Shown here piece by piece: positions 38,072-41,445 of a stretch of 64,000 bases of DNA (its first letter is position 1; each line of letters opens with the position of its first letter). The stretch is from NCBI GenBank assembly GCA_030750765.1, contig JASMHM010000002.1, positions 1 through 64,000 on the forward strand, in the 5' to 3' direction. Below the pieces are notes generated by a model. The model was given only the letters and a program-made list of their open reading frames with translations. It was not told the DNA's origin and ran no database searches. The translations under genes were made by a program, and so were the position numbers. The stretch is from Candidatus Woesearchaeota archaeon. GTDB lineage: Archaea > Nanobdellota > Nanobdellia > Woesearchaeales > ARS49.

Positions 38072-39757
38072 ATGGCAACTATAGGTGCGTTTGTGAATGA
38101 TTTCCATATGTGGCTAGATGAACGACTAACGCGGTTGGAGAGTAAGGCTGCATCGTCGCGCGAGGATGCAGAGGAAGATTTACAGAAACTCTTAGGGTAT
38201 CCCAGAATTTTGTACGAGATTGCTAGCGGCACTCATACTGTTCCTGATAATGTCTCACGCGCTTCTAGCGAAGACCACGAATTTTCCCCTGAAGTAGCGT
38301 TGGCTGACGGTGCAGAGAAATATTTGCCAGGGGGCATAGATCCCCGTTTGCAGCAAGGTATGCACCTTTGGGCCAGTGTTGGTGAAGATTCTGACAGATT
38401 ACAAGAGCTGATACCCTACATCTATGCGTGTTTCCATGATGCGTTCCAGATGTCAACAGTTGGTCCTTTCGCCCCGCTGGCTTTGGAGGCACAGACTAAA
38501 GCTGTTGGGAAACTGAATGATTCTTTTCCCGTAACTCGAATACGTATCAACGATGATCCTCATTACGCAATTAAATGTTATCCCAAGGGAGATCCTCGAC
38601 CGGCTACTCAGGCTGCAAATTGTACTGCGTTAGGCAAGACGTATCAGAACTGGGATTTGACCAGAATCCCTATTCCTTGTGTTCTCGGAACCATCGAGCT
38701 CCCTGATGAAGATTATGTCTTTATGGGAATGACTGGCGAGCCTGGAGTTCCCCTCAACCGCGAGCTCGGGGTCGCGGACCTTAGTGATGAAGCGCGAATG
38801 CATCACCTCAGAGAACTTGTAGGGATGTCTGTGCATATGGGTTATCAATTGGCAGGTCAACTAGGAAGTAAAGAAAAAGATTTGGATTATGCGCGTAGGT
38901 CATTCAGCACGCCAAGAGGAACCCGGGCTCACATCGGGGCAAAGACAGTCCGTGCCATTGAGGAAAGCGGTTTCCAAGATAGAGATACCGACTTGTATGC
39001 CTATCTTCTTAGCTTTTTGGAAAATATTGATCATCTTCGAGATCAAATAAACGATGATTCGCTTTGTGTGATGGTTGATGGAAGTCCTGAAAATATCAGT
39101 CTGAACGGTGGTGAATACCGCCTTATCGATTTTGAGAACAGACTAGGATACTTTTTTGCTAGTGAGGTGTGGGCGGGATTACTGCATCCGGATTCGGGAT
39201 ATGATTTTTCACCAAAAAATGAAGGCATGACTAAAGCATACGTCGCTTTTGCTGCAGGTGTTGGAGCGCTATACAATGAGCAACTATCTGGGAAGATGTT
39301 GATGGACCTTGATTGGGAGGATCCTGCCTCAATATATCGTGAAATTGGACGAGTAAAGAGCGAGAATGGCCAGGATCTAGATATTATTTACCGACATTCT
39401 CTGGGCTGTGCGGTCAAGAGTGCTTTCGAGAATCTGCGAATGGGAATATCCCGTCGGAAAGCGGCTAATGATTACACAGATGATCTATGGGTTGCAAACT
39501 CTTCCTTCTTACAAGCTCTTGATGATGTTGAACGCACTTCGGGTTCACTCATGAACCGACTTCAGCAAGAATGGACTCCAGACACCACACAAAACTGGGA
39601 TTGTTTTAGTACGCGCACACGATGGCTTGGCTTTCAAATAATCAAGAATGAGTTTGAGAGAGGAATAGAACATTACGGGGCAGTTTGTGAGAGCGCATTG
39701 ACCATGCTTGGTTTTGACGAAGCTTCTCAAGTAAGAGAAACTTATTTCAAAATCTGA
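38072..39757 (+). CDS. Divergent kinase-like (APH/protein-kinase fold) protein
   Basis: HYAIKCYP (lysine strand), VMVDGSPENISLNGGEYRLIDFENR (catalytic/metal loop-like). Confidence 0.5.
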   Translation: MATIGAFVNDFHMWLDERLTRLESKAASSREDAEEDLQKLLGYPRILYEIASGTHTVPDNVSRASSEDHEFSPEVALADGAEKYLPGGIDPRLQQGMHLWASVGEDSDRLQELIPYIYACFHDAFQMSTVGPFAPLALEAQTKAVGKLNDSFPVTRIRINDDPHYAIKCYPKGDPRPATQAANCTALGKTYQNWDLTRIPIPCVLGTIELPDEDYVFMGMTGEPGVPLNRELGVADLSDEARMHHLRELVGMSVHMGYQLAGQLGSKEKDLDYARRSFSTPRGTRAHIGAKTVRAIEESGFQDRDTDLYAYLLSFLENIDHLRDQINDDSLCVMVDGSPENISLNGGEYRLIDFENRLGYFFASEVWAGLLHPDSGYDFSPKNEGMTKAYVAFAAGVGALYNEQLSGKMLMDLDWEDPASIYREIGRVKSENGQDLDIIYRHSLGCAVKSAFENLRMGISRRKAANDYTDDLWVANSSFLQALDDVERTSGSLMNRLQQEWTPDTTQNWDCFSTRTRWLGFQIIKNEFERGIEHYGAVCESALTMLGFDEASQVRETYFKI

Positions 39758-40659
39758 TCATCAAAGCACATTTGAATGGTCGGGATGGCCAGACTTCTAA
39801 TGCTTATCAATAAGTCATGAACAAACGCAACATGAACGGTTATCTGGCCTTTTTTACTAACGAGCGAGTCGACAATATCCTTTGTCTGCTTACTATGCAA
39901 AACCAATCGAGGGATGTGTTCTTGCTTGCGTGATCTCAACAGACTCAATATTTCATCCAGAAAGGAATCTAGGCTTTTTAGTGCATTAACCGTCGCCTTA
40001 CTAGGAGCCCTAGGTGCAAACGATCTTGCCAAATGTTTATACGCGTCTCCGATACCTTCCAGCTGATCGACAATATCGTACATAGGCCCTATTGATTCTT
40101 TTATTGTTTCTGGATGTTTTGTGATGAGGCGTAGACAGAAGAAAGAAAACTTGTTAACGTTAACATCCATTAACACTATGTTGGCGTATCCTGCTGCGTC
40201 GTGGTTTGCTGCTGCATCAGTCATTTCCTTAGCCATGTTACCTATGAATACTAGCAAGCGTTTGAGCACGTGCCCAAATTCTTCAGGAATACTGTCGCTG
40301 AGTTTTCGTACGACGAGGTGATTCCTTCCCTGGTCTACAACACCAAATCCAACACAGGTGTGGCTGACGAAATCTTGAATGGTGGCGATCTGTTCTGGGC
40401 CAGACACGTCTAGTCTCATTTCGTCATATCCTGCTTTGTATAGTGAGCTTAGGATGGCCAAACTGGAATAGTTGTCAGTTATTTTGAGAGATATTGTTCG
40501 AGTTTCCTTTCTTATTTCTTCAACAGAAACCAGCAAGCCTCTTGGACCGGGGGTTACCTCGAGCTCATCTCCTTTAGCTATGTTGTTTTTCTTTGCCCAC
40601 TCTCTAGGCAGTGAAATGAGCTGCGTACTATTCGCTATTTGTATAACTTTTCGTTTCAT
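39742..40659 (-). CDS. AbrB-PhoU domain regulator
   Basis: N-terminal MKRKVIQIANSTQLISLPREWAKKNNIAKGDELEV (AbrB-like) and C-terminal PhoU-like helices. Confidence 0.8.
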   Translation of the reverse strand: MKRKVIQIANSTQLISLPREWAKKNNIAKGDELEVTPGPRGLLVSVEEIRKETRTISLKITDNYSSLAILSSLYKAGYDEMRLDVSGPEQIATIQDFVSHTCVGFGVVDQGRNHLVVRKLSDSIPEEFGHVLKRLLVFIGNMAKEMTDAAANHDAAGYANIVLMDVNVNKFSFFCLRLITKHPETIKESIGPMYDIVDQLEGIGDAYKHLARSFAPRAPSKATVNALKSLDSFLDEILSLLRSRKQEHIPRLVLHSKQTKDIVDSLVSKKGQITVHVAFVHDLLISIRSLAIPTIQMCFDDQILK

Positions 40660-40706: not shown

Positions 40707-40776
40707 AGATTATAAATTATAAGGAATAACTATATTAAAACCCTTTGTACGGTATTTCTTAGAGGAAACCCGAAAT

Positions 40777-40914
40777 ATGGGGAGTACGCGAAAGATAAAC
40801 GAGCCGCATCTGAACCGCCGCCAATGGGATGAAGATCTCTGGGAGGAGGAGTTGGATGACGACGAAATCATGGAGGAAAGCAACAATGGAAAACGAAACA
40901 CCAATGGTAATTGA
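40777..40914 (+). CDS. Acidic Trp-containing microprotein A (45 aa)
   Basis: MGSTRKINEPHLNRRQWDEDLWEEELDDDEIMEESNNGKRNTNGN; shares D-E-x-LWEE pattern with microprotein C. Confidence 0.5.
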   Translation: MGSTRKINEPHLNRRQWDEDLWEEELDDDEIMEESNNGKRNTNGN

Positions 40915-41002
40915 AGACGTCGGAGATCTCCAGGCTTTTCTGTGTAACAACTTACAAGACAGAAAGAAGCGTGCGAGATTCCAGCGCGCATCACTGCAAT
41001 AA
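40886..41002 (+). CDS. Microprotein B (38 aa)
   Basis: MENETPMVIEDVGDLQAFLCNNLQDRKKRARFQRASLQ; GGAGG 9 nt upstream; paralogous to D. Confidence 0.65.
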   Translation: MENETPMVIEDVGDLQAFLCNNLQDRKKRARFQRASLQ

Positions 41003-41020
41003 CGCGTCTTCACTCACTTG

Positions 41021-41055
41021 AGACTACCCCGTCCCTCTCACGAGGGATGGGGTCT
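41021..41055 (+). terminator. Hairpin followed by T-rich tract
   Basis: AGACTACCCCGTCCCTC-tcac-GAGGGATGGGGTCT then ATTTCTACATTTTTTTT. Confidence 0.6.
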
Positions 41056-41100
41056 ATTTCTACATTTTTTTTATTATCTTTTTTCTTTATTTGTCACTCC

Positions 41101-41159
41101 AATTATATAAAATTCAACAATTATATAATTATTATAAAGTTTAAAGCATAATTATATAA
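41101..41159. repeat. Three AATTATATAA repeats (41101-41110, 41119-41128, 41150-41159)
   Basis: Exact 10-mer copies upstream of microprotein C. Confidence 0.8.
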
Positions 41160-41206
41160 TCTTAATATGGTGCATACTTGTTATCAACACCAAGGGGGTT
41201 AGAACC

Positions 41207-41332
41207 ATGAACGAAGAAGAATGGATGGACGACACCGTATGGGAGAACGACATGGATGAAGGGTCGCTATGGGAAGAGGCCTTCATGCAGGGCGTACGCG
41301 AAGCCGAAGAAGAAGGCTTTGGGGGGGCATGA
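41207..41332 (+). CDS. Acidic Trp-containing microprotein C (41 aa)
   Basis: MNEEEWMDDTVWENDMDEGSLWEEAFMQGVREAEEEGFGGA. Confidence 0.6.
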   Translation: MNEEEWMDDTVWENDMDEGSLWEEAFMQGVREAEEEGFGGA

Positions 41333-41445
41333 ACATGGATGACATACCCTTTATTGTTACAGACATTGAGGATGTACGCGCTTTCCTCATGAACGAGGCA
41401 CTTGACAGAAAGCGTCGCACCAAATACCAACAACACCTAGACTAG
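41329..41445 (+). CDS. Microprotein D (38 aa)
   Basis: MNMDDIPFIVTDIEDVRAFLMNEALDRKRRTKYQQHLD; ATGA overlap with C; paralogous to B. Confidence 0.65.
   Translation: MNMDDIPFIVTDIEDVRAFLMNEALDRKRRTKYQQHLD

Follow-up and report, generated by a model that had tools for sequence, protein, structure and literature searches.

In Halobacterium salinarum, the genes brz and brb sit beside bat and encode two small proteins, one with a zinc finger and one that is basic, respectively, which co-operate with the transcription factor Bat (PMC3184054). The woesearchaeal operon described here resembles this system (PMC3184054, PMC2253796), its nearest tested precedent, in that a zinc-ribbon microprotein (Z) and another microprotein are encoded by neighbouring genes beside a transcription-factor gene, the analogous pairs overlapping. 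There, brz and brb are co-transcribed and have been shown to act together on transcription, and it is by arrangement that the woesearchaeal operon may be likened to them. Several differences must be considered, i.e., (i) the proteins belong to different families as far as tested, (ii) the regulator is of the Bat family there and an AbrB-PhoU protein here, (iii) Brb is strongly basic (pI 11.4), (iv) brz-brb, as described in the accessible parts of both papers, comes without an acidic core protein and without an RNA element, which are both present in the woesearchaeal operon, and (v) the window, namely the whole stretch of 64,000 nucleotides analysed here, has itself no zinc ribbon. The C(P)xCG zinc-finger micro-proteins of Haloferax volcanii are, like Z, one-domain zinc ribbons of less than 70 aa (PMC6562870, PMC11241148), whereas Z is accompanied by an acidic microprotein (A) and often by a further one (B). 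Respective to the acidic proteins, a role may be suggested by analogy, and as a functional lead only, by AbbA of Bacillus, a small AbrB antirepressor which helps remove AbrB from DNA and is described as a DNA mimic (Tucker et al., 2014, cited in PMC5300871). In the literature library searched, no paper was found that treats Woesearchaeota together with small zinc-ribbon proteins, with small ORFs or with AbrB. The genomes of DPANN archaea are small and poorly annotated. The present operon is widespread and combines a structured RNA with a regulator gene conserved next door; by analogy, it would add a lineage-level case of microprotein co-regulators of the brz-brb kind.

The window belongs to an archaeal genome of 1.14 Mb (G000), in which two tandem units, A-B (40777-41002) and C-D (41207-41445), each comprise a promoter and two overlapping microprotein genes, all on the forward strand. 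Gene A (40777-40914) encodes an acidic microprotein of 45 aa (pI 4.4) without the AFxxG core and overlaps by 29 nt gene B (40886-41002), which encodes a microprotein of 38 aa. Gene C (41207-41332) encodes an acidic microprotein of 41 aa (pI 4.05) bearing the core motif WEEAFxxG and overlaps by 4 nt (ATGA) gene D (41329-41445), also of 38 aa and the paralogue of B. A purine-rich, Shine-Dalgarno-like stretch precedes each of the four genes. The four ORFs, the duplication of a two-gene unit and the overlapping frames, all proposed in a first-pass annotation, were thus found again on the sequence. The acidic/basic pairing proposed at the same time held for the acidic side only: acidity is confirmed for A and C, whereas B (pI 6.1) and D (pI 5.1) carry no basic net charge and have a basic character only in their C-terminal halves. 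For D, a helix spanning residues 13-37 is predicted (pLDDT 85, pTM 0.46; model from 7 sequences). In the libraries searched, the A-D operon gave no match to any annotated family of proteins or RNAs, and PADLOC and PHROGs scans of A-D returned no match. Three features come in addition to that annotation, namely a divergent AbrB-PhoU regulator gene (39742-40659, reverse strand, 305 aa), a duplicated promoter block, and an RNA element between B and C (41006-41061, forward strand). The promoter/operator-like block (TTATAAATTATAAG...CTATATTA) is 28 bp long and lies before A (40710-40737, forward strand), with a second copy showing one mismatch to the pattern before C (41132-41159, forward strand); exactly 2 matches occur in the 64-kb window and 0 in shuffled windows. 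Because the pattern was drawn from these two copies, this result shows a joint duplication of promoter and genes and does not bear on operator status. The block is recognisable in most genomes of the family of the window (f1), weak or absent in three of them (G006, G003 and G020), and present also at three RNA-element loci of another family (f32); it may be only a TATA/BRE promoter.

It is virtually certain that A-D are genuine genes and that the operon they form part of is conserved. In the first instance, B and D share 12/31 identities and 22/31 positives in an ungapped BLASTP alignment (E=2e-10 for a single comparison), with a score reached by 0/5000 shuffles. The paralogy first put forward is therefore upheld, as is the gapless alignment, except that its end-to-end extension requires a one-residue offset (12 identities). 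The likeness of A to C is much weaker and mostly compositional, 3/5000 shuffles scoring as high. Both units are kept at the equivalent place in a sister species (G001), which alone represents the genus in the set besides G000, and a single unit stands at the locus in another genus of the same family (G016), so that the homologues in relatives on which the first-pass annotation had staked the case do exist; D is 81% identical to its orthologue in the former and 51% in the latter. No homology was read into the weaker matches of D in G018, G026, G030, G033 and G035, and the region concerned in G035 held no operon on reading its sequence. Between G000 and G001, changes in A-D fall mainly at third codon positions, with dN/dS of 0.16 for A, 0.07 for B, 0.11 for C and 0.13 for D (pooled 0.115), single values being rough since a simple counting method was applied to short alignments (the first 39 codons for A), yet all in agreement. 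These values point to purifying selection on all four genes, in line with the selection claimed from the outset, and lie nowhere near 1, the figure then considered fatal to it. Between the paralogues B and D, dN/dS is 0.41, which says little because dS is saturated (>1.5). It is extremely improbable that the four ORFs arose by chance or are the remnant of a pseudogene; such a reading could draw on their very short length, their lack of annotation and their acidic low-complexity stretches, but it conflicts with the low dN/dS of all four genes, the conserved starts, the Shine-Dalgarno-like sites and the synteny. Conservation refutes it for B, C and D, and for A only the tail overlapping B is unconserved, the G001 gene stopping 5 codons earlier.

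A-B/C-D is a doubled, genus-specific and local form of an operon distributed across the order. Judging from the loci compared, the core of this operon is the acidic microprotein A/C, with B/D and the zinc ribbon Z (40-46 aa) as optional partners; where loci could be read, A comes first, followed by B and lastly by Z, with B or Z absent from some genomes. The core motif of the acidic gene takes the form (L/S)xWExAFxxG or DDELSPxEEAFMxGYEEA, and in other families a motif of the latter kind mostly closes the A-type protein. In a profile search for this gene, C matches with E=1e-11 and A does not match. C is the typical copy and A a diverged one that has lost the core motif. The A-type profile matches 25/28 family genomes at E <=0.1, a count that includes, in some genomes, a longer fusion protein in place of the operon gene; B also has profile matches in the family. 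Z, with the motif CxxCG...DPYxCRxCE...LD, comes with A and often B. Of 295 genomes examined in the order, 41 contain it, and a search of 85,488 species genomes with an exact degenerate DNA pattern, which misses divergent members, retrieves it in 34; those named are Candidatus Woesearchaeota (33) and Nanoarchaeota (1), relatives by which the window itself would be placed in Woesearchaeota. It is absent from G000 and from the equivalent locus in G001 and G016. No NCBIfam model matched Z above its cut-off. A PRDM9-like identity, suggested by low-E sequence matches in the PDB, was rejected as no single stretch passes, the matches coming from repeated C2H2 fingers. Genome completeness varies throughout, many loci stop at contig edges, and gene starts were read from the sequence. 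Of note, several loci outside the family (L142, L146, L151, L157 and others) carry after Z a conserved gene of ~95 aa beginning MKLHQQFDLNL... or similar, and others (L143, L150, L158, L183, L184, L187 and L188) a microprotein of ~35 aa with a DFFxRY...EFxEK-like pattern.

This distribution bears directly on the addiction pair initially considered. Two overlapping small genes, a tandem duplication and a neighbour with a MazE/AbrB-type domain are what a toxin-antitoxin system could look like; nevertheless, of the pair, the acidic member is the constant one and B/D is optional, so that the pair is not a conserved unit, B or Z being lost alone while A stays. The operon is single-copy, syntenic and vertically kept on the chromosome, no match was confirmed in viral contigs for the B/D profile nor found in phages and plasmids for Z, and no toxin family was matched in Pfam, NCBIfam, PADLOC or PHROGs. 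For these reasons, an addiction function is highly unlikely.

The divergent neighbour is, by its domain and predicted fold, an AbrB-PhoU regulator. Its product matches the MazE/AbrB domain PF04014 with 29.5 bits (cut-off 24.7), its PhoU part remaining below the Pfam cut-off. In its AlphaFold model (pLDDT 86), the top 17 PDB fold matches are all PhoU or PhoU-like, with rank 7 titled only "hypothetical protein"; as E-values are only 0.002 to 0.06, the assignment is carried by the probability (0.98-1.00) and the consistency of the matches. The AbrB of Bacillus is not known to have a PhoU part. Considering the 34 Z loci found by pattern, and thus chosen regardless of the regulator, 6 are too short upstream for a decision, and in the remaining 28/28 a divergent AbrB-PhoU gene lies no more than 1.1 kb away (profile search, E 5e-28 to 3e-111); the profile was built from 63 regulators including those of some tested loci, for which the hit, though not its position, is given by construction. 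Such a gene likewise accompanies 17/17 RNA-element loci of the family whose upstream sequence reaches 1.5 kb or more, those of G022 and G040 ending at contig edges. In the family f32, it was found within 1.5 kb at 0/3 RNA-element loci, which makes the adjacency usual and not obligatory. In a regulator tree with several long branches and hence unsure details, the family's operon-linked regulators group together (4 label changes vs 15.2 when shuffled) without forming one clade, and those linked in other families constitute a distant AbrB-PhoU group, suggesting that the association outlasts one orthologue. The window genome holds seven matches to the AbrB-PhoU protein, and the operon offers a concrete handle on the control of such regulators. 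One of these matches (C9:157575-158429) contains an in-frame TGA and is perhaps a pseudogene or a chance extension.

The RNA element is previously undescribed, Rfam providing no family match. It is composed of the 12-mer GUCUUCACUCAC, a 12-bp GC hairpin (41026-41053 in the window, z -5.9) and a U-rich tail. In 19/28 family genomes, the 12-mer is invariant at the end of the operon and the sequence of the hairpin changes; in some of them, further copies of GUCUUCACUCAC elsewhere look chance-like. A hairpin is present in 20/20 elements examined (19 family genomes and L174), with a run of at least 4 T on its 3' side in 16/20 (not in G010, G006, G003 and G020), so that not every member ends in an intrinsic terminator of the standard kind. 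Covariation over 18 sequences exceeds all 500 shuffles in score and in cells paired, but with 70% of cells paired the alignment is rough, and counts of this kind are inflated by related rows. The covariance model (R1) gives 47.4 bits to the window element, which belongs to its training set, and independent support comes from the spread of the element, found among the 295 genomes in 17, only in the families f1 and f32. The three f32 genomes were outside the training set; there, the element follows A in G058, A-B in G128 and only a degenerate ORF in G191. A reading of the element as a protein-coding frame was discarded because the frame is not kept (G009 vs G023).

It could be asked whether the RNA is the main product, i.e., a small regulatory RNA in which GUCUUCACUCAC pairs with targets or binds a protein, the microprotein genes being passengers or partners. 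The juxtaposition of 12 invariant bases and a hairpin whose sequence changes, the detection of the element in f32 by the model and its persistence in G191 next to a mere degenerate ORF would fit. On the other hand, a search of the 28 genomes for the complement of the 12-mer, GTGAGTGAAGAC, with up to 1 mismatch gave 155 matches after removal of the 19 own elements, vs 127 for a reversed control, and no recurrent site conserved across the family was recognised among the matches listed. The element is, besides, absent in most operon-bearing families, and G014 has lost the 12-mer yet retains A, alone, with a hairpin terminator. Such an RNA-centred function is thus rather unlikely.

Taken with the recurrent regulator neighbour, the RNA element closing the operon makes A-D probably small helper proteins of gene regulation. 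More specifically, we tentatively favour the view that the microproteins are small co-regulators working with the divergent AbrB-PhoU regulator, because this neighbour is recurrent, the proteins are small and the acidic module is linked with zinc fingers; the f32 loci devoid of a neighbouring regulator keep this preference short of an even chance. In the corresponding scheme, where all physical interactions, the use of the block as an operator, the direction in which regulation runs and the part played by the RNA are inferred, AbrB-PhoU would read a signal via its PhoU part and bind the AT-rich, palindrome-like block common to the operon promoters. The putative acidic helix of A/C would bind the regulator or one of its partners and thereby alter DNA binding, with B/D, and elsewhere Z, as possible partners within the same complex. 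The 3' hairpin would end the transcript and the invariant 12-nt strand may serve as a site of post-transcriptional control. A variant, in which one short transcript would provide a stable 3' RNA with the invariant 12-nt strand and its microprotein partners (elsewhere also Z) as a ribonucleoprotein-like unit controlling the AbrB-PhoU circuit, appears distinctly improbable.

The link of the acidic module with zinc fingers comes from a fusion relative matched in 59/119 genomes, though not in G000, where the A motif (YTEEGREELxExDExxPWEEGFxxGA) is embedded in a protein of ~130 aa found order-wide (L235-L264) and is mostly followed by a treble-clef-like zinc finger (FCS/L24e-like, with Pfam matches below cut-off). 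This fusion is a Rosetta-stone-type hint that acidic module and zinc fingers may act together. Its neighbours vary, which counts against co-regulation with AbrB-PhoU and leads to another possible, if unlikely, reading, where the microproteins belong to a basal machine, be it the ribosome, RNA polymerase or a stress/hibernation factor, and AbrB-PhoU merely regulates the operon, as neighbourhood alone could mean. A zinc ribbon with an acidic helix is a common build among small ribosome- and polymerase-bound proteins; the weak resemblance of the fusion relative to L24e (far below cut-off) and the f32 loci without a neighbouring regulator point the same way. Conversely, no significant match to a ribosomal or polymerase protein was obtained in Pfam, NCBIfam or the PDB, and the patchy presence of Z in the order is unlike that of a basal factor.

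On the other side of the regulator gene, a 561-aa ORF (38072-39757, forward strand) has no Pfam or NCBIfam match; in G001, the equivalent position is occupied by a 566-aa ORF (L011 929-2629), apparently strongly diverged.
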